DNA from: Cyanobacteria bacterium NC_groundwater_1444_Ag_S-0.65um_54_12
GTDB taxonomy: Bacteria > Cyanobacteriota > Sericytochromatia > S15B-MN24 > VGJW01
Length of the DNA: 12,953 nucleotides
Direction of reading: 5' to 3'
Assembly (NCBI GenBank): GCA_016267585.1
Contig: JACQUT010000292.1
Span: 1-12,953 of the forward strand
The position numbers and the translations under genes were made by a program. Below the pieces are notes generated by a model. The model made no database searches, was not told the origin of the DNA, and was given only the letters and a program-made list of their open reading frames with translations. Positions 10 through 11,965 of this stretch are shown here, piece by piece (the stretch's first letter is position 1; each line of letters begins with the position of its first letter).

Positions 10-831
10 GTGGTCGCGTTAGATTCACCGATTCCTACCATTTTTGAGCCAGCACTGCGAAATATTCTGGACATGGCGCAAAATTTCATAGGCTACTTGC
101 CCCAGCTATTGCTGGGCATTTTGCTGTTCGGTATTTTCCTGCGTTTGGCCCGGTGGATACGTGACTGGACCCGCGTCGTGGTTGCGCGTACCACTGCCAA
201 AGATAGTGGAGATGCTGGGTTAATCCTGGGACAAATAGCCTATGGCATAGTAATTTTGGCAGGCTGTGGTGGTGCTGCTGCCATGATGGGGCTGGGACTG
301 GGCAATGTCTTGGCTGGCATAGGCGTATCCGGCATAGTGGTAGGCTTTGCTTTCAAGGATATCCTGGAAAATTACTTGGCAGGAATATTGTTGATGCTTA
401 CCGCGCCTTTCCGTATTGGCGATTCCATAAAGACCGGTGAATTCGAGGGAACGGTACGCACTATCTCTACTCGTAGTACCGCTATCGAGACTCCCGATGG
501 TCAGCTAGTAATTTTGCCGAACGCCAAGATTTATTCCTTACCGCTCATCAACTTTTCTGCCATGCCGCATAAGCGTGGTAGTCTGCGCTTACGAGTGCCT
601 TATGATCGCGATCTGACTGCGATCCGTCATGAAATAATAGCTTTTGTCTCAGAAATCCCAGCCATCCTGCACCAACCGGCACCGGAAGTTTTCGCTGTTG
701 CACTGGATGCCACCGCTATTGATCTGGAGCTGCGGTACTGGACTAAGCATGATGATGCGGTAGCGAGCCGCAGCGCTATCATAACAGTTCTCAAGGAGCA
801 ATTATATGAAAAGAGCATGCCACCGCTATAG
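10..831 (+). CDS. Small MscS-family mechanosensitive ion channel
   Basis: This predicted inner-membrane channel of the small-conductance MscS family opens under membrane tension to release solutes during hypo-osmotic shock. The 273-residue product has three hydrophobic stretches (about residues 30-48, 72-92 and 98-130). The third is the Gly/Ala-rich pore helix (GLGLGNVLAGIGVSGIVVGF, then AFKDILENYLAG). It is followed by the MscS beta-domain signature PFRIGDSI (133-140) and LPNAKIYS (169-176). The C-terminal alpha/beta domain is short and ends in MPPL. I used the GTG at 10, but the frame is open to base 1, so the real start may lie upstream; an internal ATG at 73 is another option. queD follows after 24 bp on the same strand. 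The family call is firm; the start is uncertain. Confidence 0.9.
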   Translation: MVALDSPIPTIFEPALRNILDMAQNFIGYLPQLLLGILLFGIFLRLARWIRDWTRVVVARTTAKDSGDAGLILGQIAYGIVILAGCGGAAAMMGLGLGNVLAGIGVSGIVVGFAFKDILENYLAGILLMLTAPFRIGDSIKTGEFEGTVRTISTRSTAIETPDGQLVILPNAKIYSLPLINFSAMPHKRGSLRLRVPYDRDLTAIRHEIIAFVSEIPAILHQPAPEVFAVALDATAIDLELRYWTKHDDAVASRSAIITVLKEQLYEKSMPPL

Positions 832-855: not shown

Positions 856-1272
856 ATGGCAGGTTACGAGGTCGCCAAGAGACTATGCTTTTGTTATGGA
901 CATCGCTTGCTGGAATATGCTGGTAAGTGCCGTAACCTGCATGGCCACAATGCTCTGGTCGAAGTCACGATATCAGCTGCCAGTCTCGACGCTCGTGGCA
1001 TGGTAATAGACTTCAATGATCTGAAACACACCTTGCAAAGCTGGATCGACGAGCAACTGGATCATCGCATGATATTGCGCTCGGATGATCCGTTATTGCC
1101 GATTTTGCGCGAATACGGTGAACCGGTTCTGGCGTTGGAGCAGAATCCCACTGCCGAGAATATCGCACGTTTGATCTTCGAGGCAGGCAGTGCCGAGGGT
1201 ATTGAGTTGCAGGCCGTTCGCTTGTGGGAAACGCCTGATTGTTACGCAGTTTACTCGCCAGTTTGCTCATAG
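856..1272 (+). CDS. queD: 6-carboxy-5,6,7,8-tetrahydropterin synthase (QueD / 6-pyruvoyl tetrahydropterin synthase family)
   Basis: QueD converts 7,8-dihydroneopterin triphosphate to 6-carboxytetrahydropterin in the cytoplasm, an early step toward queuosine and other 7-deazapurines. The 138-residue product has the usual size for the family. It carries the CxxxHGH motif (C25, H29, H31), which supplies the catalytic Cys and two zinc ligands; H16 is the likely third zinc ligand. LDHRMI (67-72) and LWETP near the C-terminus match the family's catalytic Asp-His and substrate-binding Glu regions. The CxxxHGH spacing favours the QueD branch over true sepiapterin-forming synthases. It follows the MscS gene by 24 bp and is probably cotranscribed with it. 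Its stop overlaps the stop of the convergent glycosyltransferase gene by 6 bp. No queC, queE or folE is visible. The family is certain; the exact pterin product is inferred. Confidence 0.88.
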   Translation: MAGYEVAKRLCFCYGHRLLEYAGKCRNLHGHNALVEVTISAASLDARGMVIDFNDLKHTLQSWIDEQLDHRMILRSDDPLLPILREYGEPVLALEQNPTAENIARLIFEAGSAEGIELQAVRLWETPDCYAVYSPVCS

Positions 1273-4200
1273 CGATACTGCCGCGGATCCGATCGGGCAA
1301 CCTAACGATCGCCCAGCCGTGATCCCCGGCGTCGGTGTAAACCAGTTGATTCCCCACAGCTCGGTCGCGGCCGGCACCATACCGGGGCCGTAGTACTGTA
1401 CCAGTTTGCGGGCCAGCGCATCCGTACTTTCCTGCACGAGTTGCCTGGTCCGGTCGGCGGGTTCGCTTCCGAAACTGACCTGGCCGACATGATGGACGAA
1501 GGCGTCGGTGGCGATGACCAGACGATATCCTTGCTCGCGCAGACGCCACGAGAGATCGAGATCATCGTTTCCGAGGAACAGTGCCTCATCGAGCAGTCCG
1601 ACCTCAGCTATGACCCGCCGAGGAACCATCAGACAAAAACCGATCAAGAGCTTGGTCTCGACAACCTTGCCGGCATTCCGCTCAGCTAGCAGATCCGCGA
1701 TCAGATCGGGTACTTTGCCTTCATCAGGAAGATAGCGCTGGTATTTCTGTAATCCCGCCACGTAGTCCGAGGTGGGACCCACGGCTCCCACGTTCGGATC
1801 CGCGAAGGGCTGCTTCATCCGATCGAGCCAGCCAGGCGTGACCACCGTGTCGGGGTTGAGGAGAACGAGATACTCTCCCTTGGCAACCCGCAACCCGACG
1901 TTACTGCCGGCAGAGAAACCGAGATTCTGCTCACTGAAGACTATTCGCACCCGCGGATCTTGTCCTGACAAGCTTTGCAAAAACTCTACGGTACCGTCGG
2001 ATGAGGCATTGTCGACGACTATTAACTCGTCGGCAGCGCCCAGGTTCTGCAGAACGCTCCGGACGCCTTCCGCGATCGTGTGCAGCGAGTTGTAAGTCAC
2101 CATGACCACCGAACTCGAACCGGCTACCGGACCTTGTTCTAGCTTGGCGACCTGCCGCTCGAACGCGCCCGGATCAGGTTCTAGCAACGGCAAACCGAGT
2201 GCCAGGGCGATCGCCCGCTCCTGGTCATCCCCAGAATCCACCCACGCGGTCGCTTGCCGGAAAAGACCGATGCTCGGGGCCGGAGCCTCTACCAGAGCCA
2301 CATCGGGAATACGCTCCGGATCGTGACCTTTGGCCTCCAGCCAGCTAGCGATCGCCCCCTGCATCGTCTCCGCCTGACCGGGCGGTAGCTGGATCACCAG
2401 GGTGATTTCCTGGCCAGCCGACACGGTGGCCAGGAAAGCGGTCAACGGTGTCTCCCAGTTGGTTCCCGAGACGAGCCAACGCCAGCTAGCCGGCTCGTCT
2501 AGCTGGGAAGGTGGCCCATTCCAGTCGAACGATCCAAAAGCGCTGGCAGCCACTCGCAAATTTTCGGCCGTCGCCGACCCGAAAGCCGGGATCCCGAGAC
2601 GGCGCGCGCGCGCGGCCACCTGGGGTGGCCCTATCACGAGATCCGCTGCCATGAGATATCTGGTGAGCCCAGCCGGTACCCCTGGCTGGTCCAGTAGGGA
2701 GATCAGCGGAATATTATCCGGATCCATCCCGTGCCGCTCGATCGCAGTCAGCACGATCGCTTGCACGCTGCTCACGGCAGGTCCGGCCAGGACATGGAGT
2801 CCGACAGCGGCCTCCGGGGGAAAGGCGGCCAGATACGCGGCTATCGTCTCCGCTATGCCACCGCTCGATTGACCTTGCCCAGAGAGGGGATCCCCTGCGG
2901 CGCGCAGCGCCGGGGGAGAGTGGGCAAGGTCAATCGAGCGGTGGCATGAATTGCAACTTTCGCCGCTGTTCGCGGCTTCAGCTCCCAGGAATACGTCAGG
3001 TACGCTAGCGTCCGGAACCAGAACAATATTGAATTTACGACGATCTGGCAGTACAAAGTCTCCGGCAGTGGTAGTGGTAGCGGCACGAACTGCGGTGCCG
3101 GCGCGAAAGAGCAACTGATAGGCATTGGTATCTGCTGCGAGCTGTGGGTTCGCTATGCCGATGTCATGCGCCAGCTGTACCAGGGCAGCAGTCAGCTCCT
3201 GGTTGGGAATAGCGATGGATTGAACTTCTAGCGCCTGCAACCCCGCTTGTTCCAGTAGCTTCAGGAAGCTTTGCCTGGTGAACATGCGCAGATGGGTACG
3301 ATCCAGCAGGCCTTCGTCGGTATAGTCGAAATTACCTGTCAACAGTTCGCGAATCACGGACCAGTGGCCGATGTTCGGAACACAGACCAGCAGCTCGCCC
3401 TGCGGTCCGAGCAAGCGACGATGGGCCGAGAGCACGGCCCCGGGATCTTTCAGATGTTCCAGTACGTCACCATAGATGATGCAGTCGAAAGACCCGTCGG
3501 GATAGGGGATCGCCAGCGTTTCGACATCCCCCTCGATCACCGCGTCAAGGCGTACTCTGGCTGCTGCGGCTGCGTCGGCAAAGGCCTCGATGCCGATCAC
3601 CGCGCGCTCCGGATCCTGCTCCTTTAGCCATGCTCCCAGATATCCGGCAGCGCAGCCTACCTCCAGTATACGCTTGGCAGTGGCTGGAACCATGTCAGCT
3701 AGCCGCTGATTGATGCGGCCGTAATAACCACCTTCCGGTACGCTTCCGACAGCGGAAGCGCGCTCGGCTCGGTCAATGATGACCTGGACCACGCGCTCGG
3801 TGGCGCATCCTTCGCCTGCGGCATTGAGTTCTTCCAGCGTGGCAGCGCGGCCAGTTGCCAGGCGATCGCGAAAAGCCTCGTCATGCAAACACGAACGCAG
3901 CGCTCTGCCTATAGAATCCGGGTCAGGCTGACAGGTGGCGATGCCGGCCTGACCCTCGTAACCGGAGCGCGTCCCCGTCCCGGGTTGCGGCCAGACAATG
4001 GATAGCGCCAGACGCTGGGCTAGCAGCGCGACCACCAGGAAATTGCTGTCCAGTCCCACCACCAGATCGGCAGCCGCCAGGAAAGTCTCTTGGGGAACGT
4101 CCGGCACCATGATCGGAACACCGACCGCCGCGGCGATCTGCCGATGCCACTCCGGCCCGAAATCGTTCAATACTTTATGTCCGGGATGGGGACGGACCAT

Positions 4201-5001
4201 CACGAGCGGCATGGCCGGGCCGAGCTGTGCAATTCCTGCCAGGAATGCGCGGAAGGCTTCGCGCATCATGCCAGAAAGGTCGAAGGTAGTCAGGGTATGG
4301 GCCCAGCTACCGGCGAACCCGACCACTGGCGCGGCGGAAAGGTCGATACCTAGAGCCCGACGCGCCATGTCGCGGTCCAGGGACGCCGCGCGATAAAAGA
4401 TATCCCACTCCGGACGCCCGGTGATAATGATCTGTTCAGCGCTGTTCCGCGGATTCTTGAGGTACCAGTCCCGGGTGTAGGGCCCCGGGGCGCACACTAC
4501 CGTGGTCCGGATCAGGTCGTCGAAATCAGTCAACGGGAAACGGCCAAGCTCTATCCCGTGCGGCAAATGAATAGTGGGAATGTGATGGCGCGCGGCCACG
4601 GCAATCAGGACGCGCAGATTGGGCGCCACGTCGTTGTGAACCACTACGGCCCGGATCGGTCCGGCGCGATGCAGACGCTCGAATGCCTCGGCCAGCACCC
4701 AGAGGCCCGGAAAGCTTTGCAATAACATGGCTCCCCAGCTGGGCGCCAGCTCAGCGGTCAGATCGCGTCCCGACAGGTAAAACGGCCGGGCAGAAATAAT
4801 TTCCCCGATCCAGTGCTGCAAACTACCGTTCAGTTCGGCAAGGTTGACGGACTGGCGAGCCGCATTCCAGTAGGTGGCGAATTCCGGACTCCCCAGCACG
4901 ATCACCCGATATGCTCCCTGGGTTTCGAGCGCCCGGATCAAGCCAGCATGTGCCGTGTGGGCGGAAATCAGTACGATGGGCTTACGAGAGTTCACGTTCA
5001 C
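1267..5001 (-). CDS. Giant multidomain glycosyltransferase/SAM-methyltransferase protein (GT-B - methyltransferase - GT modules - GT2)
   Basis: This predicted 1,244-residue enzyme should assemble and methylate a surface glycan. Residues 1-410 resemble GT-B/CDP-glycerol glycerophosphotransferase-like capsule enzymes (HLPHGIELG 146-154, MVRPHPGHK 268-276). Residues 425-600 are a class I SAM methyltransferase (ILEVGCAAGYLG 445-456, DVLEHL 512-517). Residues 655-820 and 840-955 are two diverged copies of a Rossmann-like GT module. Residues 963-1185 are a family-2 glycosyltransferase (VVDNASSDGT 995-1004, LLNPD 1047-1051, GNDDLDLSWRL 1144-1154). The frame is open to an ATG at 5124, but I chose GTG 5001. 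It has AGGAGG 6 nt upstream, and its GTGA overlaps the stop of the preceding methyltransferase, which suggests translational coupling. A 93-bp palindromic element encodes residues 686-716. Acceptor and donor are unknown; pseudaminic acid is a plausible donor from context. Confidence 0.85.
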   Translation of the reverse strand: MNVNSRKPIVLISAHTAHAGLIRALETQGAYRVIVLGSPEFATYWNAARQSVNLAELNGSLQHWIGEIISARPFYLSGRDLTAELAPSWGAMLLQSFPGLWVLAEAFERLHRAGPIRAVVVHNDVAPNLRVLIAVAARHHIPTIHLPHGIELGRFPLTDFDDLIRTTVVCAPGPYTRDWYLKNPRNSAEQIIITGRPEWDIFYRAASLDRDMARRALGIDLSAAPVVGFAGSWAHTLTTFDLSGMMREAFRAFLAGIAQLGPAMPLVMVRPHPGHKVLNDFGPEWHRQIAAAVGVPIMVPDVPQETFLAAADLVVGLDSNFLVVALLAQRLALSIVWPQPGTGTRSGYEGQAGIATCQPDPDSIGRALRSCLHDEAFRDRLATGRAATLEELNAAGEGCATERVVQVIIDRAERASAVGSVPEGGYYGRINQRLADMVPATAKRILEVGCAAGYLGAWLKEQDPERAVIGIEAFADAAAAARVRLDAVIEGDVETLAIPYPDGSFDCIIYGDVLEHLKDPGAVLSAHRRLLGPQGELLVCVPNIGHWSVIRELLTGNFDYTDEGLLDRTHLRMFTRQSFLKLLEQAGLQALEVQSIAIPNQELTAALVQLAHDIGIANPQLAADTNAYQLLFRAGTAVRAATTTTAGDFVLPDRRKFNIVLVPDASVPDVFLGAEAANSGESCNSCHRSIDLAHSPPALRAAGDPLSGQGQSSGGIAETIAAYLAAFPPEAAVGLHVLAGPAVSSVQAIVLTAIERHGMDPDNIPLISLLDQPGVPAGLTRYLMAADLVIGPPQVAARARRLGIPAFGSATAENLRVAASAFGSFDWNGPPSQLDEPASWRWLVSGTNWETPLTAFLATVSAGQEITLVIQLPPGQAETMQGAIASWLEAKGHDPERIPDVALVEAPAPSIGLFRQATAWVDSGDDQERAIALALGLPLLEPDPGAFERQVAKLEQGPVAGSSSVVMVTYNSLHTIAEGVRSVLQNLGAADELIVVDNASSDGTVEFLQSLSGQDPRVRIVFSEQNLGFSAGSNVGLRVAKGEYLVLLNPDTVVTPGWLDRMKQPFADPNVGAVGPTSDYVAGLQKYQRYLPDEGKVPDLIADLLAERNAGKVVETKLLIGFCLMVPRRVIAEVGLLDEALFLGNDDLDLSWRLREQGYRLVIATDAFVHHVGQVSFGSEPADRTRQLVQESTDALARKLVQYYGPGMVPAATELWGINWFTPTPGITAGRSLGCPIGSAAVSL
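2855..2947 (-). repeat. 93-bp in-frame palindromic element, copy 1
   Basis: The arms 2855-2881 and 2921-2947 form a perfect 27-bp inverted repeat around a 39-nt core (2882-2920). The core contains the palindrome GGGGATCCCC (2886-2895) and a 6-bp hairpin with a GCA loop (2898-2912). The pairing ends at the same T/G mismatch as in copy 2. I set the strand so that the core reads as in copy 2 on the plus strand. The element lies inside the giant glycosyltransferase gene, is 31 codons long, contains no stop in the used frame, and encodes residues 686-716. It lies between the first beta strand and the following helix of a GT module, which looks like a later insertion. I do not recognise the family. 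Confidence 0.9.
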
Positions 5002-6314
5002 CAGTCGCCTCCTACGAGCGGACGCAGCACCCGGGTAAGATGGTTCAGGACCTCGTACTCCAGCAACGGAGCGAACGCTGTACCGCGACGGTCGAAAGTC
5101 CCGTTCGGCGAACGCTGGTACCACCCTTGCGCCCAGCGCCAGGCAACTTGATCGAGCACTCGCGCCTGATGATAAGGGCTCAACAGGGCCATGAAGTCAA
5201 CCGGAACTGGCAAGTACGGCCCGACGAGCTCATTTAGCGCAGCTATCAGCTTCGGCGCGCCCTCCGGCTGCATTCTGACCTGCAAGCCCTGATAGAAAGC
5301 GTCAAACTCGGGATTGCCCATCATCCGGCGCAGGACCCTGGTAGTTAGAGCACCGCTCAAGCTACCTCGCCCACTCTCCCCCGGCGCTGCGCGCCGCAGG
5401 GGATCCCCTCTCTGGGCGAGGTAGCTTGAGCGGTGCTCTGGCGAACTGCCGTCGAGCTCCAGCGCCGGGGGTGGTACCCACGGAGTGGACTGGGTACCGT
5501 CATCACCTGGCACTTCGGCTATTACCAGGTAACCGTACGACACCGTGATGGGTAGACAAGGCAGTACCGTTTGCTCGACGTAGGCCCAGAGTTCTAGCGC
5601 GCCCGGCCAGCGAAAGACATGTTCTAACTCGGCCATCACGGTATCGTTGCTGGTGCCCAGCGCTTCGCGCAGGAGATAGTTATGATTGAAGCTGTCGTAA
5701 GGGACTATCTGGGTGACCACGGCACCAGCTCGCGCCAGAGCAGCACTGACGTCCGGCAGATCAACCTCGGCCTGGTAGTAGTTGGGATCTTTGGGGTGCG
5801 CCATGGCCCCATGCCGCAAACCATTGCGATTGGCCCAGATCACGTTGGGTAAGCTGCACATGTTGAATATCATGCGACCGCCCGGGCGCAAGACGCGGGC
5901 ATATTCCCGCAAGATATCCGTCCATTGCGGGAAATGCGGTACGACCGTGATCGATACTATAGTGTCAAAGCTCGCGGCCTCGTAGGGCAGCTCGAATACC
6001 GATCCCGCGATGAACGGAATGGGGCGAACTCCTGCCGCCTGGCGAGCGACATCGAGCATTTCGGCCGAGATGTCGAGACCGGTGACGTCAAAGCCGGCGT
6101 CGTAGAGGGGAATAGTGAATCGTCCCGTGCCGGCACCGGCATCCAGCACCCGGCCACGTGAATACTGGATGGCCAAGGCGATCTCGCGCAGATTCTTCAG
6201 CGTGGTGACGAAACTATCGTTATATATGTTGACCTGATAGCGCTGCGCAATCCCCTGATTTTGCCAGACCTGCTCTTTCCAGGTGGCTATTTGACTATCT
6301 AGCTTTGAATTCAA
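4998..6314 (-). CDS. Class I SAM-dependent methyltransferase with unrecognised C-terminal domain
   Basis: The 438-residue product has an N-terminal class I methyltransferase domain. Motif I is VLDAGAGTGRF (57-66), the acidic end of strand 2 is GLDISAEMLDVA (79-90), and the post-I and motif IV region includes LPYEAASFDTIVS (109-121) and VLRPGGRMIFN (141-151). It probably methylates a glycan or nucleotide-sugar intermediate; the substrate is unknown. Residues 293-323 are encoded by a palindromic repeat lying in a proline-rich linker (TPWVPPPAL). After it comes a domain of about 115 residues (324-438), rich in aromatic residues, that I do not recognise. The start is TTG at 6314 with GGGAG 7 nt upstream. 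pseI ends 24 bp before it. Its stop overlaps the GTG start of the giant glycosyltransferase gene (GTGA), so the two are probably translationally coupled. Confidence 0.85.
   Translation of the reverse strand: MNSKLDSQIATWKEQVWQNQGIAQRYQVNIYNDSFVTTLKNLREIALAIQYSRGRVLDAGAGTGRFTIPLYDAGFDVTGLDISAEMLDVARQAAGVRPIPFIAGSVFELPYEAASFDTIVSITVVPHFPQWTDILREYARVLRPGGRMIFNMCSLPNVIWANRNGLRHGAMAHPKDPNYYQAEVDLPDVSAALARAGAVVTQIVPYDSFNHNYLLREALGTSNDTVMAELEHVFRWPGALELWAYVEQTVLPCLPITVSYGYLVIAEVPGDDGTQSTPWVPPPALELDGSSPEHRSSYLAQRGDPLRRAAPGESGRGSLSGALTTRVLRRMMGNPEFDAFYQGLQVRMQPEGAPKLIAALNELVGPYLPVPVDFMALLSPYHQARVLDQVAWRWAQGWYQRSPNGTFDRRGTAFAPLLEYEVLNHLTRVLRPLVGGDW
5008..5013 (-). promoter_or_regulatory. Strong Shine-Dalgarno deciding the GTG start at 5001
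   Basis: AGGAGG on the minus strand lies 6 nt before the GTG at 5001-4999, inside the last codons of the methyltransferase gene. It supports a start 41 codons downstream of the longest possible frame. The protein from this GTG begins MNVNSRKPIVLISAH, a normal opening beta strand, whereas the upstream extension is Arg/Pro-rich and overlaps the preceding gene. Confidence 0.8.
5347..5439 (+). repeat. 93-bp in-frame palindromic element, copy 2
   Basis: The arms 5347-5373 and 5413-5439 form a perfect 27-bp inverted repeat around a 39-nt core (5374-5412). That core is identical, base for base, to the reverse complement of the plus-strand core of copy 1. The arms differ from those of copy 1 at 8 of 27 positions, and each change is matched on the opposite arm. 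The element lies inside the methyltransferase gene and encodes residues 293-323 in the linker between the catalytic domain and the C-terminal domain. The reading frame used is the only one of the three on the coding strand without a stop inside the element. Both copies begin at the third base of a codon. Confidence 0.9.
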
Positions 6315-6338: not shown

Positions 6339-7391
6339 TCAGCCGAGCAATTCCCAGCTTACCGGAGTGCCCCTCTTGACATCATATCTGACTTTCTTAC
6401 CCAGCAGTAACTCATAGTATTTGGGGGCCAGGCCAAAGCCTGGGCGGATCGCCCGGAGGTTCGCCTTCGTGAAGACCTCTCCGGATCGCATATCCTGGGC
6501 CACATACAGCGAGCGACGAAACCGTTTAGCTGCCAGCTCGCGCTCGGTCAGGCCGTAGTGTATCCGGCCCAACGATTGCCAGGCCCTGGTGCTCTCGGTC
6601 ACCAGCGCCGCGAGCTCTGACGGCTCCAGCGAGAATGCCGCATCGACTCCCCCGTCGGCCCGAGACATGGTGAAGTGCTTCTCGATGACCATGGCACCCA
6701 GGGCGACGCTTGCCACCGCCACCCCTATTCCCATGGTGTGATCAGAGAGGCCGACCGGCACCCCGAAGAGATCACGCATGTGGGGGATGGTCAGTAGATG
6801 CGTGTCCTCCGGCGTGGCCGGGTAGCTACTGGTGCACTTGAGCAGGATAAGATCCTGGCAACCGGCTTGTCGCGCTGTCTGTACCGCTTCGTCCAGCTCG
6901 GCCATGGTGGCCATTCCCGTCGAGATGAGCAGAGGCTTGCCAGTCGACGCCACCCGCCGTATGAGTGGCAGGTCCGTGTTTTCGAAGGAAGCGATCTTGT
7001 AAGCCGGTGCACCCAGGGCTTCGAGCAATTCCACCGCCGTGGCGTCGAAGGGGGTGCTGAAGCAGATCATACCCCGGTCCCGGCAACGGTCGAAAATCGG
7101 ACGGTGCCAGTCCCATGGTGTGCTGGCCTGCTGGTAAAGCTGGTAGAGCGAGGTACCTTTCCACAGGCTCTCTGGATCGTCTATGAAGAAATCACCCTCG
7201 TTCAGATCAATTGTCATGGTATCGGCAGTGTAGGTCTGGAGCTTGACCGCGGTCGCACCGGCAGCGGCAGCCGCCTCCACGATTTTCAGGGCACGTTCGA
7301 GCGATTGGTTATGATTGCCGGACAGCTCCGCGATGATGAATGGCGGATGTTTCGGTCCGATCGGGCGGTGGGCGATCGCAATCTCAGACAT
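6339..7391 (-). CDS. pseI: Pseudaminic acid synthase (NeuB family)
   Basis: PseI condenses a 2,4-diamino-2,4,6-trideoxy-L-altrose derivative with phosphoenolpyruvate to form pseudaminic acid, the fifth step of the pathway, in the cytoplasm. The 350-residue length is normal. Residues about 1-280 are the NeuB TIM barrel: FIIAELSGNHNQ (18-29), AVKLQTYTADTMT (48-60), then STPFDA, KIASFE, LISTGMA, LLKCTSSYP, GLSDHT and EKHFT in the expected order. The last 60 or so residues (RRSLYVAQDMRSGE onward) form the SAF/antifreeze-like domain that closes over the active site. ATG 7391 overlaps the end of the upstream formyltransferase gene by 8 nt, with AGGA before it. The SLYQLYQQASTPWDWH segment favours PseI over sialic or legionaminic acid synthases, and the pseB-pseC-pseG context agrees. 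Confidence 0.95.
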   Translation of the reverse strand: MSEIAIAHRPIGPKHPPFIIAELSGNHNQSLERALKIVEAAAAAGATAVKLQTYTADTMTIDLNEGDFFIDDPESLWKGTSLYQLYQQASTPWDWHRPIFDRCRDRGMICFSTPFDATAVELLEALGAPAYKIASFENTDLPLIRRVASTGKPLLISTGMATMAELDEAVQTARQAGCQDLILLKCTSSYPATPEDTHLLTIPHMRDLFGVPVGLSDHTMGIGVAVASVALGAMVIEKHFTMSRADGGVDAAFSLEPSELAALVTESTRAWQSLGRIHYGLTERELAAKRFRRSLYVAQDMRSGEVFTKANLRAIRPGFGLAPKYYELLLGKKVRYDVKRGTPVSWELLG

Positions 7392-7974
7392 GGTTTGTTT
7401 CCTGGCAGCGCGCGGCTCCGATTAGCTGGCGCACCGGGGTATCCCATCCAGCGGTCAGCAGCGAGGCATATGCTGCTTTAGACTTCAGACGATGGGTCGA
7501 TCCGCCGGGTGGCTGTGGTGTTGCAATCGCAGTTCCGGATCGTATGGCTGGCCAGGATTCGCGAAAAAGCTCAGCAATGGCAACCGAGAGTGCCTCGTAA
7601 CTGGTTCGCAGCGTGTCATCCGGGCTAAACGCGACTGCTCGCTGTGCCAGGATAGCTCCGGTATCTATGCCTGGATCGAGGTAGTGAATAGTTACACCCT
7701 TGGGGGTATCCTCGAGGAAGCTCCAGAGATTGGGATCAGCCCCCCGGTTCCAGGGCAGCAGAGAAATGTGAAGATTGATGGCTCGGCTCGGAAATCTGTC
7801 GAGCAGCTCTGCCTGCAAGATGTGGCGGTAGCCGTAGCTTATCAGGAATTCCATGCCCATGGTAGCGAGCTGGCTACCGGTTATGGGTGCCTCGCACGTT
7901 ACCACCTCGTCTCCCTGGCATTCAAGGAAATCGATCAGCGTCTGCCGCGGCGGACCCAACAAGAGCACCTTCAT
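7384..7974 (-). CDS. Formyltransferase-family enzyme, probable UDP-4-amino-sugar N-formyltransferase of the pseudaminic acid pathway
   Basis: The 196-residue product belongs to the methionyl-tRNA formyltransferase/GART fold and should use 10-formyltetrahydrofolate. The catalytic triad is visible: N67 and H69 in NLHISLLPWNRGADP and D104 in LDPGIDTGAIL, with spacing almost as in Fmt. It lacks Fmt's C-terminal tRNA-binding domain, so it is not a housekeeping Fmt. It lies between pseG and pseI, overlapping pseG by 1 nt (TAATG) and pseI by 8 nt. No PseH N-acetyltransferase is visible, so this enzyme probably formylates the C4 amine of the PseC product, giving an N7-formyl pseudaminic acid. As I recall, an analogous enzyme has been named PseJ in other bacteria; I have not verified this. 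The family is firm; the substrate is inferred from context. Confidence 0.85.
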   Translation of the reverse strand: MKVLLLGPPRQTLIDFLECQGDEVVTCEAPITGSQLATMGMEFLISYGYRHILQAELLDRFPSRAINLHISLLPWNRGADPNLWSFLEDTPKGVTIHYLDPGIDTGAILAQRAVAFSPDDTLRTSYEALSVAIAELFRESWPAIRSGTAIATPQPPGGSTHRLKSKAAYASLLTAGWDTPVRQLIGAARCQETNHV

Positions 7975-9077
7975 TAACTTCGTCCTTCCATGGCTGCTAT
8001 TACCCGGTCAGTTCCCCGACCATCAACCAGCATGGCAGCACGTTCAGCCAGTCGCTGTACTTTCACCGGGGAGCCTAGCAAATCCTCGATTGCCTGCTGC
8101 AGCCCGCTCACGGTGACCGCGCTGGCTGTACCGAGATAGATCCCGGCACCATGGGAATTGCAAGCTTCGACAATTCCTTCCTGGTTGCGTGCCACCGCGA
8201 TGATCAACGCGGGCAGGCCCATGCAACAACGTTCCCAGGTAGTCGAACCGCCGGCTCCGATGGCCAGATCGGCACATGCCATGAGTTCGGCCATCTGGTC
8301 GGCTTGTACATACAAGCTAGCACCAGGCAGCTCAGCTACCTGATCTGCGATTTCCTGACGCTGCTGGTTCTGGGCACCGACCACGACAGCGATAGTCAAA
8401 TCTGGTCTGCCAATCCGCCGCAGTGCTGCCAATGCCTTGGCGGTCTCGTCAGTGGCGTCAGTGCCGCCGAAGCACACCAGAACCCGCCGGACGGAACCAT
8501 CTCGCTTCGCCCTGGTCGCCCGGGCGGCTGCGAACTCGGGCCGTAGCAACGCGAACCGGGTACCGAGCAGGAGCTGGCAATCGTCATGCACGAGCTGTCG
8601 ATAGCGTTCCGCGGGATTTGCCCAGATATTTTGGTCCAGCAACAGCTCGACTTCATGAAAGCGATCGGCCACGTCGTCGATCGCCATCAGATGCCGCACC
8701 GCCGGGCGCAAGCTGCGCTCCCAGGTCCGATCGAGAGCATAGTGGTCGACGATCAGCCAATCCGCCATGGGTGCTGCGGATTCTGCTTTCAGCAGATCTA
8801 GCACCTGCTGCGCATCAGTCTGTTGATCCACCCCCAGCCAGGCGGCATGTGGCAAATCTGCAGTAGTAGATATCAGCTCCTGGTTTGGCCGCGGCAAGCG
8901 CCAAACCCTCACGGTACCCCGAGCTTCCAGGAAGCCGCAAAGGTTACCAGGCAGCTCGCGACAGACGAACGTCACTGCTGACCCGCTTTCCCGCAGTGCC
9001 TCGGCCAGGGCGAGGCAGCGGAATACGTGACCGACGCCCATCTGGTGGGAAGCGTCGGCGCGTACCAGGATCTTCAA
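7974..9077 (-). CDS. pseG: UDP-2,4-diacylamido-2,4,6-trideoxy-beta-L-altropyranose hydrolase
   Basis: PseG removes UDP from the modified altropyranose to release the free hexose used by PseI. The 367-residue product begins with the signature RADASHQMGVGHVFRCLALA (6-25). H17 corresponds to the catalytic His of Campylobacter PseG, and a glycine-rich nucleotide-binding loop is present. The second GT-B-like domain has VLVCFGGTDATDETAKAL and ADLAIGAGGSTTWERCCMGLP, the UDP-binding region typical of MurG-like folds. It is not fused to an acetyltransferase, unlike some PseG proteins. The start is TTG 9077, which overlaps the pseF stop as TTGA; GGAGG lies 7 nt upstream. If the neighbouring formyltransferase acts before it, its natural substrate carries a 4-formamido group instead of the usual 4-acetamido group. 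Confidence 0.93.
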   Translation of the reverse strand: MKILVRADASHQMGVGHVFRCLALAEALRESGSAVTFVCRELPGNLCGFLEARGTVRVWRLPRPNQELISTTADLPHAAWLGVDQQTDAQQVLDLLKAESAAPMADWLIVDHYALDRTWERSLRPAVRHLMAIDDVADRFHEVELLLDQNIWANPAERYRQLVHDDCQLLLGTRFALLRPEFAAARATRAKRDGSVRRVLVCFGGTDATDETAKALAALRRIGRPDLTIAVVVGAQNQQRQEIADQVAELPGASLYVQADQMAELMACADLAIGAGGSTTWERCCMGLPALIIAVARNQEGIVEACNSHGAGIYLGTASAVTVSGLQQAIEDLLGSPVKVQRLAERAAMLVDGRGTDRVIAAMEGRS

Positions 9078-9811
9078 CCGTTTGCCTCCAGCTTCTTCTG
9101 CGCGACGTGGGCATTCAGCCTCACCAGCTCGGGATGCCGATCCAGGTACGCGAGCACCCGCTGGGTAGTGATGGGCCCGCCCGCCAGGGCACGAAAGATA
9201 GCGTCGAGCAACTGGAAATCCTCCAAAGTGTCCAGGGTCCAGCGGTGGTGCGAGAGGTCAACGTCATTTACCAGGTGATATAACCGGAATAGCTCGGGGT
9301 GCTGGTAGAGATAGGGGGTGACATGTTCCCGCTCGTGCGGCTTGGTAGCCTGCAAGAAAGCGGTTTCGAGGGCAGCCGCCGTGAACACTTCCGCATCGAG
9401 ACCCCGCGGATAGGTCCGCTGCAGCGTGTTGCTGGCATAATCTACTCCAGCGCCCAGCTGGGCGACGAAGGTCTCTATTAGCGTTCCCAGCACGCCTGGA
9501 TCGAGCAACGGACAGTCGGCTGTCACCCGTAACACCACACGGGCGCCACTTTGCTGCGCTGCCAGGTGATACCGGGCCAGGACGTCATCTTCGCTGCCCC
9601 GAAACCAGCGCGCGCCGCAGCGCTTGGCTTCTTCCACCACCACATCATCGGAAGGACAGACCGTGGTAGCCACGACGATATCCGCCACCGGCGCCGCCTG
9701 AACTCGTGCGATGACATGGGCGAGGACCGTCTGACCGCCCAGCGCCAGCAGTACCTTGCCTGGCAGCCGCGTGGAGCCCATGCGGGCCTGGATGATGGCA
9801 ACCACTCTCAT
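9074..9811 (-). CDS. pseF: CMP-pseudaminic acid cytidylyltransferase, SpsF-type
   Basis: This enzyme is expected to activate pseudaminic acid with CTP to CMP-pseudaminic acid, the last step before transfer. The 245-residue protein opens with the nucleotidyltransferase signature IIQARMGSTRLPGKVL (6-21) and continues with DIVVATT, WFRGSEDDVLARY and VLRVTADCPLLDP, the metal- and nucleotide-binding core of the CMP-sialate-synthetase-like superfamily. The LPGK and DVLARY pattern and the C-terminal RWTLDTLEDF segment match the SpsF (COG1861) group, not classical NeuA. Such proteins commonly take the PseF position in pse clusters. ATG 9811 overlaps the pseC stop as ATGA, with GGAG 8 nt upstream, and pseG overlaps its end. 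Sugar specificity is inferred from the operon. Confidence 0.88.
   Translation of the reverse strand: MRVVAIIQARMGSTRLPGKVLLALGGQTVLAHVIARVQAAPVADIVVATTVCPSDDVVVEEAKRCGARWFRGSEDDVLARYHLAAQQSGARVVLRVTADCPLLDPGVLGTLIETFVAQLGAGVDYASNTLQRTYPRGLDAEVFTAAALETAFLQATKPHEREHVTPYLYQHPELFRLYHLVNDVDLSHHRWTLDTLEDFQLLDAIFRALAGGPITTQRVLAYLDRHPELVRLNAHVAQKKLEANG
9085..9089 (-). promoter_or_regulatory. Ribosome binding site for the TTG start of pseG
   Basis: GGAGG on the minus strand lies 7 nt before TTG 9077-9075, inside the 3' end of pseF. It supports the rare start codon. The resulting protein begins MKILVRADAS, exactly where PseG proteins normally start. Confidence 0.7.
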
Positions 9812-10977
9812 GGCGAAAGCTCCGCGACGGTACGCTGGATGGCCCGGATGACGCGGCGCACGTCGTCATCGTTCATGCGCGGGAAGATAGGGAGCGAAAT
9901 GGCCCGGGCATAGTAGCGCTCAGCTTCCGGAAAGTCACCCGGCAGGTAGCCGAACTTCCGAGCGTAATAGGGTTGCAGATGAACCGGAATATAATGAACA
10001 TTGACGCCTAGCCCTTGTTCCCGCAGCTGATCGAAAGCTTGCGCCCGGTCAATTGTGCGCAATTGTAGAACATAGAGGTGATATGAAGAAAACGCGCCCG
10101 GGCGGATCACCGGGATAATCAGTTCAGGCATGGCCCGAAATGCTTCGTCATAGGCAGCAGATATTGCCAGACGGCGTTCGATGAAAGCAGTCAGACGTTC
10201 GAGCTGCTGGAGTCCGAGAGCGCATTGAAAATCCGTGATGCGGTAATTGAAGCCCAACTCCTGCATCTCGTAGTACCAGGGCCCGTCATATCGCTCGAGT
10301 CGACCGGGATCACGGGCGATGCCGTGGTTCCGCAGCAATAACAGCTTCTCGTATAATTCAGACGAGTTGGTGGTCACTGCTCCACCCTCACCCGACGTGA
10401 TGTGCTTGACCGGATGGAATGAGAAGATGGTCATGGCGCTGTGGGCACATGAGCCAACAAGGTTGTTTTGGCCATTTAGCTGGTAACTGGCGCCGATGGC
10501 ATGCGCAGCATCCTCGATGACCAGAAGTTCGTGTTCCCGGGCTATTTTCCCTAATTCTGACATGTCACACGGCTGGCCAGCAAAATGGACCGGGATCAGC
10601 CCCCGGGTCGCCGGCGTGATGCGCCGCCGAACCGAGGCGGGGTCAAGGCAGTAGGTCACCGGATCGATGTCAGCGAAGCCGGGGCAGGCACCGGTGTAGA
10701 GGAGGCAGTTGGCGGAAGCGACAAAGGTAATGGGCGACGTGATGACCTCATCGCCTGGGCCAAAGCCTGCTGCCAGAGCCGCGAGATGCAGGGCCGCAGT
10801 GCCGTTGGCGACGGCCACGGCGAATTTGGCGCCGCAGCGCCGCGCGAGCGCTCGTTCGAACTCGGCTATCAATGGCCCTTGCGTCAACCAGTCCGACTGC
10901 AGAGCCGCGCTGACGGCCGAGATGTCGCCATCATCAAGCCACTGGTGGCCGTAGGGGATGAAAGGTTGGATCGACAT
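9808..10977 (-). CDS. pseC: UDP-4-amino-4,6-dideoxy-N-acetyl-beta-L-altrosamine transaminase
   Basis: PseC is a PLP-dependent aminotransferase (DegT/DnrJ/EryC1 family). It uses glutamate to aminate C4 of the 4-keto sugar made by PseB. The 389-residue product begins with the typical IPYGHQWLDDGDI motif (7-19). It carries NGTAALHLA (58-66) for phosphate binding, EDAAHAIGA (155-163) with D156 contacting the pyridine nitrogen, and the Schiff-base lysine K191 in FSFHPVKHITSGEGG. HGIARD and YEMQELGFNYRITDFQCALG are further family blocks. The ATG at 10977 lies 44 nt inside the end of pseB, a large overlap, but the N-terminal motif requires it. pseF overlaps its stop by 4 nt. Fifteen of the first nineteen residues look conventional for PseC, so identification is firm. 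Confidence 0.94.
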   Translation of the reverse strand: MSIQPFIPYGHQWLDDGDISAVSAALQSDWLTQGPLIAEFERALARRCGAKFAVAVANGTAALHLAALAAGFGPGDEVITSPITFVASANCLLYTGACPGFADIDPVTYCLDPASVRRRITPATRGLIPVHFAGQPCDMSELGKIAREHELLVIEDAAHAIGASYQLNGQNNLVGSCAHSAMTIFSFHPVKHITSGEGGAVTTNSSELYEKLLLLRNHGIARDPGRLERYDGPWYYEMQELGFNYRITDFQCALGLQQLERLTAFIERRLAISAAYDEAFRAMPELIIPVIRPGAFSSYHLYVLQLRTIDRAQAFDQLREQGLGVNVHYIPVHLQPYYARKFGYLPGDFPEAERYYARAISLPIFPRMNDDDVRRVIRAIQRTVAELSP

Positions 10978-11965
10978 GTTCCCTGATGAGCTCTCTAAGT
11001 TGTTCCACGGTCAGAAAATCCGGGTTGGTACCGCTATGGTAATTGAATCCGGGCTGGCAATAATGCCCCTGGTGCACGGCCATGAACTCCGCGACATCCC
11101 AAAGCGGCAACGCTGGCAGGATGACGAAGTATTTCCCGAACTCTATGGTATTGAGGGCATCGGTTTCGGTGATCATCTCCTCGTGGAGCTTCTCTCCGGG
11201 ACGGAGCCCGACGATTTCTTGCCGGCATGCGGGGGCGATCGCAGCGGCCACATCGCAGATCCGGTAACTGGGGATCTTTGGCACGAAAATCTCACCGCCC
11301 CACATGAGGTCCAGGGCAGCGAGGACCAGCTGCACGCCTTCTAGCAGGGTGATATTGAAGCGCGTCATACGCGGGTCGGTGATCGGCAACACTCCTTCGT
11401 GGCGTTTCTTTAGAAAGTAGGGAATCACGCTGCCACGGCTGCCCATGACGTTACCGTAACGCACCACTGAAAATTGAATAACTCGCTTGCCCTTCATGTT
11501 GTTGGCAGCCACGAACAGCTTGTCCGAACAGAGCTTGGTAGCTCCGTAAAGATTGATCGGGGCAGCGGCCTTGTCAGTGCTGAGGGCTACGACTTTCCGC
11601 ACCCCATTATCGAGGCATGCTTCGATCAGGTTCTGGGCACCGAGCACATTGGTCTGGATACACTCGAAGGGATTGTACTCGGCCACGGGCACGTGCTTGA
11701 GGGCCGCGGCATGCACCACCAGATCGATGCCTTCCAGTGCGCGCCCCAGCCGAGCCTTGTCGCGAACGTCACCGATAAAGTAACGGATCTGCGGAAAGCG
11801 GCGTGGCGAAAACTCTTGCGCCATCTCGAACTGCTTGAGTTCATCCCGGGAAAAGACTACCACTCGGACTATTTCGGGGAAGCGGGTCAGGATGGTTTCG
11901 ACAAACTTCTTGCCAAACGATCCGGTTCCGCCGGTAACCAGGATGGATCTTGCTTGCAACGTCAT
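10934..11965 (-). CDS. pseB: UDP-N-acetylglucosamine 4,6-dehydratase (inverting)
   Basis: PseB starts pseudaminic acid synthesis by converting UDP-GlcNAc to UDP-2-acetamido-2,6-dideoxy-beta-L-arabino-hexos-4-ulose, dehydrating C4/C6 and inverting C5. The 343-residue short-chain dehydrogenase-like protein has the NAD(P) loop TGGTGSFGKKF (11-21), HAAALKHVPVAEYNP (85-99) and the catalytic set T130, D131, K132 in LSTDKAAAPINLYGATK with Y140 and K144. These fall within one residue of the numbering I recall for Helicobacter FlaA1. SVVRYGNVMGSRGSVIP is a further family block. ATG 11965 follows the upstream glycosyltransferase by 14 bp. The end overlaps pseC by 44 nt, and the last few residues (HPLRPPVA) extend slightly past the usual C-terminus. 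Identification is near certain. Confidence 0.95.
   Translation of the reverse strand: MTLQARSILVTGGTGSFGKKFVETILTRFPEIVRVVVFSRDELKQFEMAQEFSPRRFPQIRYFIGDVRDKARLGRALEGIDLVVHAAALKHVPVAEYNPFECIQTNVLGAQNLIEACLDNGVRKVVALSTDKAAAPINLYGATKLCSDKLFVAANNMKGKRVIQFSVVRYGNVMGSRGSVIPYFLKKRHEGVLPITDPRMTRFNITLLEGVQLVLAALDLMWGGEIFVPKIPSYRICDVAAAIAPACRQEIVGLRPGEKLHEEMITETDALNTIEFGKYFVILPALPLWDVAEFMAVHQGHYCQPGFNYHSGTNPDFLTVEQLRELIREHVDPTFHPLRPPVA

Follow-up and report, generated by a model that had tools for sequence, protein, structure and literature searches.

The stretch analysed here, positions 1 to 12,953 of contig JACQUT010000292.1 from Cyanobacteria bacterium NC_groundwater_1444_Ag_S-0.65um_54_12 (hereafter the window), carries two 93-bp palindromic segments inside neighbouring genes. 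These segments are copies of a dispersed, non-autonomous mobile family, which very probably consists of palindromic miniature inverted-repeat transposable elements (MITEs) of the IS630 type. The features that characterise MITEs were observed, namely a length of 93 bp without transposase coding capacity, terminal inverted repeats, dispersed copies, empty sites and, in a sister genus, a target-site duplication. Beyond what an initial annotation of the window had described, the arms of the element, and not its core, are common to a sister genus, and the arms vary in concert.

The 93-bp elements, their distribution and their empty sites

Each element consists of two 27-bp arms that are 100% complementary, with 39 nt between them, and the two 39-nt cores are identical and lie in opposite orientation, as the initial annotation had described and placed them. 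The elements and their host open reading frames (ORFs) are listed below, where R1 is a covariance model of 93 positions built from 19 copies picked as the cleaner ones.

2855..2947, minus strand (family-model orientation): element copy 1, 93 bp; R1 E-value 2.6e-24, 108.7 bits; among the 19 model copies
2855..2881, plus strand: inverted arm of copy 1, 27 bp, perfect
2882..2920, minus strand: conserved 39-nt core of copy 1, with 6-bp hairpin and GGGGATCCCC
2921..2947, minus strand: second inverted arm of copy 1, 27 bp, perfect
5347..5439, plus strand: element copy 2, 93 bp; R1 E-value 5.4e-24, 107.5 bits; also among the model copies
5347..5373, plus strand: inverted arm of copy 2
5374..5412, plus strand: 39-nt core of copy 2, the same as the copy 1 core in reversed orientation
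5413..5439, minus strand: second inverted arm of copy 2
1267..5124, minus strand: host ORF of copy 1, methyltransferase and glycosyltransferase-2, with the element in frame and in the interdomain region
4998..6314, minus strand: host ORF of copy 2, S-adenosylmethionine (SAM) methyltransferase with an extra C-terminal domain, the element in frame between them

The predicted folds of the four strands were highly stable (z -11.2 to -11.6), and none of 200 dinucleotide shuffles was equally stable. The 6-bp hairpin first noticed in the core is present, but GGGGATCCCC, which had been read as a palindrome of its own, forms no hairpin, and the predicted head is one bulged hairpin with a 9-nt single-stranded stretch rather than a branched structure.

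The genome to which the window belongs (G000, the own genome) is a draft of 411 contigs, 2.07 Mb and 64.6% completeness, and the window is one of these contigs. A blastn search of it with copy 1 gave 41 rows, while R1, with which 150 of 682 first-look candidates were scored, gave 69 rows over the two strands together. Manual merging of both sets resulted in approximately 42 loci, including partial and weak ones, which bears out the earlier suggestion of a non-autonomous mobile family; far from being without further copies in the genome, the two segments belong to a large set. With up to 3 mismatches, the core pattern was matched 22 times in the own genome and not at all in the other 385 of 386 genomes of the phylum. 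The exact core pattern had no match in a collection of genome contigs, and its 5 matches in viral contigs represent two distinct sequences, in which no palindromic arms were seen by eye. Plasmids gave 2 weak partial matches and phages none, and a literature search returned nothing that we recognised as describing this 93-bp family. Among 38 relatives, R1 found two weak matches in G001, which led to the sister elements described below, and one in G010. The latter (L058) was rejected as an unrelated palindrome; at positions 1500-1564 of that locus lies a near-perfect palindrome of about 64 bp and different sequence, possibly of a separate family.

Empty sites were identified in orthologues of three genes. 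In a hydrogenase small-subunit-like gene (contig C81), all 20 aligned orthologues lack exactly 31 columns; these are 20 of 25 loci, 54-68% identical, from records named as several phyla. Further along C81, a HypF gene also carries an element, which is missing from 11 of 11 aligned relatives (13 were matched, with one misframed and one split match left unaligned). For a GH65-type protein (C224), gap arithmetic indicated that the element is absent from G004, G005, G009 and G010, the four relatives with matches on each side of it. The net gain from the 93-bp form is 31 codons, as shown in one gene.

Both window copies read in frame on the minus strand. By arithmetic, copy 1 corresponds to residues ~726-757, between the Pfam matches to methyltransferase (474-633) and glycosyltransferase (1005-1124), and copy 2 to residues 293-323, after the methyltransferase matches (within 47-175). 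Both therefore lie outside the Pfam matches of their host proteins, and the idea that they interrupt protein domains was not upheld. For the copy 2 methyltransferase, no match spanning the element was present among the matches listed in 58 other genomes. G006 has a free-standing ORF of 210 aa, part of which shares 46% identity with the C-terminal domain of this host protein (residues ~315-436), and copy 2 is located at the apparent fusion border between the methyltransferase domain and the G006-like domain.

Among the 42 loci, 12 are in frame, eight of them internal and four just behind a possible start, where they precede seeming signal or prepilin sequences (by reading). The copies associated with ORFs are distributed as follows.

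Internal in-frame copies (8): the two in the window, C224, C305, two in C81, C190:2116 and C101
In-frame copies closely following a possible start (residue 4 or 5): C51, C364, C38 and C42
Partial or poorly bounded copies inside ORFs: C190:3498, C321 and C147

A rough gene caller placed 25 of the 42 loci, C42 included, between genes. A stop codon adjoins 20 of these 25, always within 65 nt and in 17 cases within 20 nt. The number of open frames per element was 2.8 in genic copies, 2.4 in other copies and 2.5 in shuffled sequences, so that selection for an open frame is unsupported.

Related ends in a sister genus and a candidate transposase

G001 belongs to the same family and another genus. 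Here R1 had matched two 126-bp elements with similar terminal arms and a different core; the arms, of about 25 bp, resemble those of the own genome and the cores are unrelated. An arm pattern was matched 112 times in G001, where its reversed control was matched 3 times; none of the other 18 relatives had more than one match. Most of the rows read out (42 of 51) are 128 bp long. Among 43 distinct copies with clear ends, 42 follow the form T-X[ATAG..CTAT]X-A with equal X; a looser count gives 44 of 51 rows, the misses being five rows off by one base, one nested row and one real exception. These flanks show that the G001 elements are bordered by a 3-bp target duplication, T-X-A, mostly within CTSAG. 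At L209 and L211 one element is nested in another, and the uninterrupted form at L207 and L212 represents the empty site. The G001 elements are widely spread, and their arms are alike in many copies though imperfect. At L217 (244-414), the core of one G001 element is itself interrupted by about 45 nt of additional, unrelated sequence. At L228 (G001:C426), crowded GC-rich inverted repeats have GGGTGGGGCCGGCCTCCGTGCC in common with the 128-bp element core and adjoin a broken IS5-like transposase.

DDE_3 gave four matches across the own genome and G001. One of the G001 loci (L279, on G001:C5) contains two overlapping ORFs, one with HTH_Tnp_IS630 (129 aa) and one with DDE_3/IS630 (202 aa). Its best sites for a matrix of the arms are its two borders, which face inward and score 18.2 bits (right) and 15.8 bits (left), and the bases outside them, CTG and GAG, obey the same flank rule as the G001 elements. 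In our judgement, only the right end exceeds chance by its score; what makes the left end credible is where it lies, how it is oriented and which bases flank it. Most likely, then, the arms represent terminal repeats of the IS630 type and the 93-bp form a derived MITE. In the strict sense, then, the family can no longer be called unrecognised, as the initial annotation had it, because its arms are similar to the termini of a sister-genus transposon of the IS630 type.

Other candidate sources were considered and rejected. The ten DDE_Tnp_1 matches and the DUF4096 loci of G001 had no arm-like ends by pattern, nor by matrix for the eight that were scored, and the own genome had no DDE_Tnp_1 match. 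The 3-bp duplication had at first suggested an IS5-type reading of the G001 elements, which was abandoned once the IS630 locus and its similar ends were found. As for the window, the initial annotation had seen no transposase nearby; none was recognised by eye among its ORFs, while the Pfam scan covered the two host ORFs only. Two 18-nt direct repeats of the window (707-724 and 817-834), each beginning with ATGCCACCGCT as the arm of copy 1 does, are situated near the end of a mechanosensitive-channel-like ORF; neither is among the nine highest-scoring sites for the arm matrix in the window.

In the own genome, T-X..X-A with equal X was observed at 7 of 40 loci, compared with approximately 0.6 expected for independent, equal bases.

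Own loci following T-X..X-A (some with ill-defined ends): C316, C317, C190:2116, C364, C101, C200 and C206

Copies with well-paired arms, taken as the young ones, are preceded by T in 16 of 23 cases (binomial p 7e-7) and followed by A in 15 of 23 (p 4e-5), and a scan of them found no fixed duplication. This suggests that young copies entered TA-type targets without a clean duplication.

Several observations weigh against assigning the family to IS630-type MITEs. Concerning the IS630 locus, its left end (15.8 bits) scores below two chance sites (16.6 and 16.0 bits) in 275 kb of other sequence, and below a lone site of 16.6 bits in another G001 locus (L281). Its ends are identical to the nearest G001 arm at only 20 and 21 of 27 positions, and to four own-genome arms at 14-19 of 27. 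The own draft genome, 64.6% complete as it is, yielded no intact IS630 transposase; its one DDE_3 remnant, 52.5% identical over 80 residues, lacks arm-like ends. With regard to targets, classical IS630 elements duplicate TA and not three bases. Only 2 of the 23 well-paired own copies have the form T-X..X-A; 17 of the 23 are bordered by TA on one side or both, and 5 of these have it at both flanks. When 40 loci with readable flanks are placed in a fixed register, the arms are paired at anything from 8 to 27 of 27 positions. Finally, HypF and the GH65-type protein carry about 12-13 extra residues beyond the 31, and in G013 (L170) HypF itself forms a longer loop at the element site.

Taken as an IS630-type MITE, the element presents two 27-bp terminal inverted repeats around a short core; a DDE transposase of the IS630 family would recognise these repeats and move copies in trans. 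Insertion in the sister genus is into T-X-A with a 3-bp duplication, and some own-genome copies keep such flanks. Judging from the open frames, copies that meet no stop in variable protein regions or behind starts would be tolerated and translated. The remaining copies are mostly found directly after stop codons.

Concerted arms and a near-constant core

The arms vary together, and the core is nearly fixed. Within the 19 model copies, whose selection for regularity favours pairing, both-sided changes occur at 23 of 27 arm pairs, and pairing extends to 94.9% of arm cells. The covariation score of the whole structure is 0.493, compared with 0.172 in shuffles (reached in 0 of 500), and does not exceed 0.079 on sliding. 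On average, two copies differ in 6.2 of the 43 core columns and show 9.3 both-sided and 2.5 one-sided arm changes. Between the two window copies there are no core differences, eight both-sided arm changes and no one-sided ones. The 14 closest pairs, which differ at 0-1 of 43 core columns, display 3-14 both-sided and only 0-3 one-sided changes. The further the core has diverged, the more mismatches the arms contain (Spearman 0.56, p 0.014, n=19). Arms are common within subfamilies, from which it follows that arms are inherited on transposition.

These patterns indicate that the arms are probably corrected against each other at the DNA level and decay afterwards; selection on active copies is a less likely alternative. 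The palindrome may be re-copied from arm to arm by template switching or at transposition, and the constancy of the core would be due to some constraint. Template-switch mutations are described as creating and repairing hairpin stems, and predict perfect stems and both-sided changes in a single event (PMC8794818). The passages concerned deal with RNA genes, from which we extrapolate to a MITE family.

The correction step could also be replaced by a transposase that selects good palindromes in each active lineage, with stepwise compensation and no copying at the DNA level. This possibility, which concerns no other part of the scheme, is a real one that we nevertheless hold to be doubtful. It agrees with the growth of arm mismatches alongside core changes and with the arms shared, and therefore inherited, within subfamilies. 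The excess of both-sided over one-sided changes in the 14 closest pairs speaks against it, as do the imperfect arms of the widely spread G001 elements, which imply that perfection is not required for movement there.

A further, unlikely extension of DNA-level correction is that the mobiliser switched from reading the sequence of the terminal repeats, as in the sister genus, to reading hairpin structure and core. The arms could then drift but would stay complementary, each move or replication would rewrite one arm from the other, and new arm variants would appear in one step.

Comparison with known palindromic elements

We place the repeat unit of pneumococcus (RUP) as the mechanically nearest system, and note that in genes the family behaves like the Rickettsia palindromic elements (RPEs). 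According to the relevant passages of PMC2229807, RUP is tied to IS630-Spn1 and is likewise a short MITE with IS630-like terminal inverted repeats and a TA-type target, but it measures 107 bp and is described as intergenic. Unlike RUP, the family presented here forms a near-complete 93-bp palindrome whose arms vary in concert around a fixed core; it includes copies that lie in frame, and its G001 relatives duplicate three bases, T-X-A.

RPEs had been named in the initial annotation as the closest concept. In the passages on them, they are palindromic elements of 105-146 bp, present in many copies and inserted in frame in the genes of conserved proteins (PMC2229807, PMC10969869). The resemblance in in-frame insertion stands, whereas nothing shows membership in the Rickettsia families; the comparison is by description only. 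The host differs, and target duplications are listed as unknown for RPEs in the part of PMC2229807 concerned, while for the present family both the type of its ends and a related transposase have been identified. Correia/NEMIS elements in their 107-bp form and ERIC are likewise stem-loop MITEs with terminal TA that give rise to in-frame fusions, but the same passages, compared by description only, do not mention variable arms with a fixed core (PMC2229807). We therefore file the present family as an IS630-type MITE family that is new in its near-fixed core and its arms varying in concert.

We consider it very unlikely that the elements are REP/REPIN-like and moved as single-stranded hairpins by RAYT, a Y1 tyrosine transposase. 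In common with such systems, the hairpins are dispersed and lie mostly 3' of genes, as REPs are described to do in the portion of PMC3733652 concerned. The own genome also has one Y1_Tnp match, a RAYT-like gene in a 150-aa frame with a G001 counterpart in a similar neighbourhood (L111 and L112). The own RAYT locus, however, is not flanked by element-like arms (best site 7.5 bits), and that of G001 has a shortened element on one side only. G002 and G004 have a Y1_Tnp gene, yet their arm matches do not exceed the control. Y1 transposition of the IS200/IS605 type makes no target duplication, in contrast to the 3-bp duplication in G001. Nor is there a GTAG/CGTC end tag, since the ends are mostly ATAG, AGAG, AGAC, ATGC or ATGG, with GTAG at one end of C37. 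The Y1/RAYT genes themselves (L111, 1501-1854, and L112, 725-1081; G000 and G001) occupy similar neighbourhoods beside seeming segregation/condensation genes, which suggests that they are vertical and possibly domesticated.

Selected RNA structures (terminators, mRNA stabilisers, or spliced or bypassed RNA inserts, with arms co-varying for the RNA fold) are most improbable: the arm covariation far above shuffles and the stop codons beside intergenic copies would fit them, but G-T pairs (9) are not above A-C (13) among the 35 arm mismatches, so that nothing points to RNA-level pairing, Rfam gave no match above the gathering score in the window, genic copies are read in both orientations and at least four frames (by reading), and the arms decay together with the core.

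Elsewhere in the window (6339-11965), a run of genes resembles a pseudaminic-acid type nonulosonic acid pathway, with labels assigned by reading the ORFs: dehydratase, aminotransferase, cytidylyltransferase, glycosyltransferase-like, formyltransferase-like and synthase.

In-frame palindromic elements are best known from Rickettsia, and similar behaviour is now observed in another lineage, with a transposon family behind it. With its nearly identical cores, and arm changes that are often both-sided and seldom one-sided, the family preserves a natural record of concerted change in palindrome arms, and DNA-level arm correction and structural selection become testable against each other in a mobile element. 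If the mobiliser does read structure, this property combined with the net gain of 31 codons would make the element a self-perfecting, gene-tolerant mobile hairpin.

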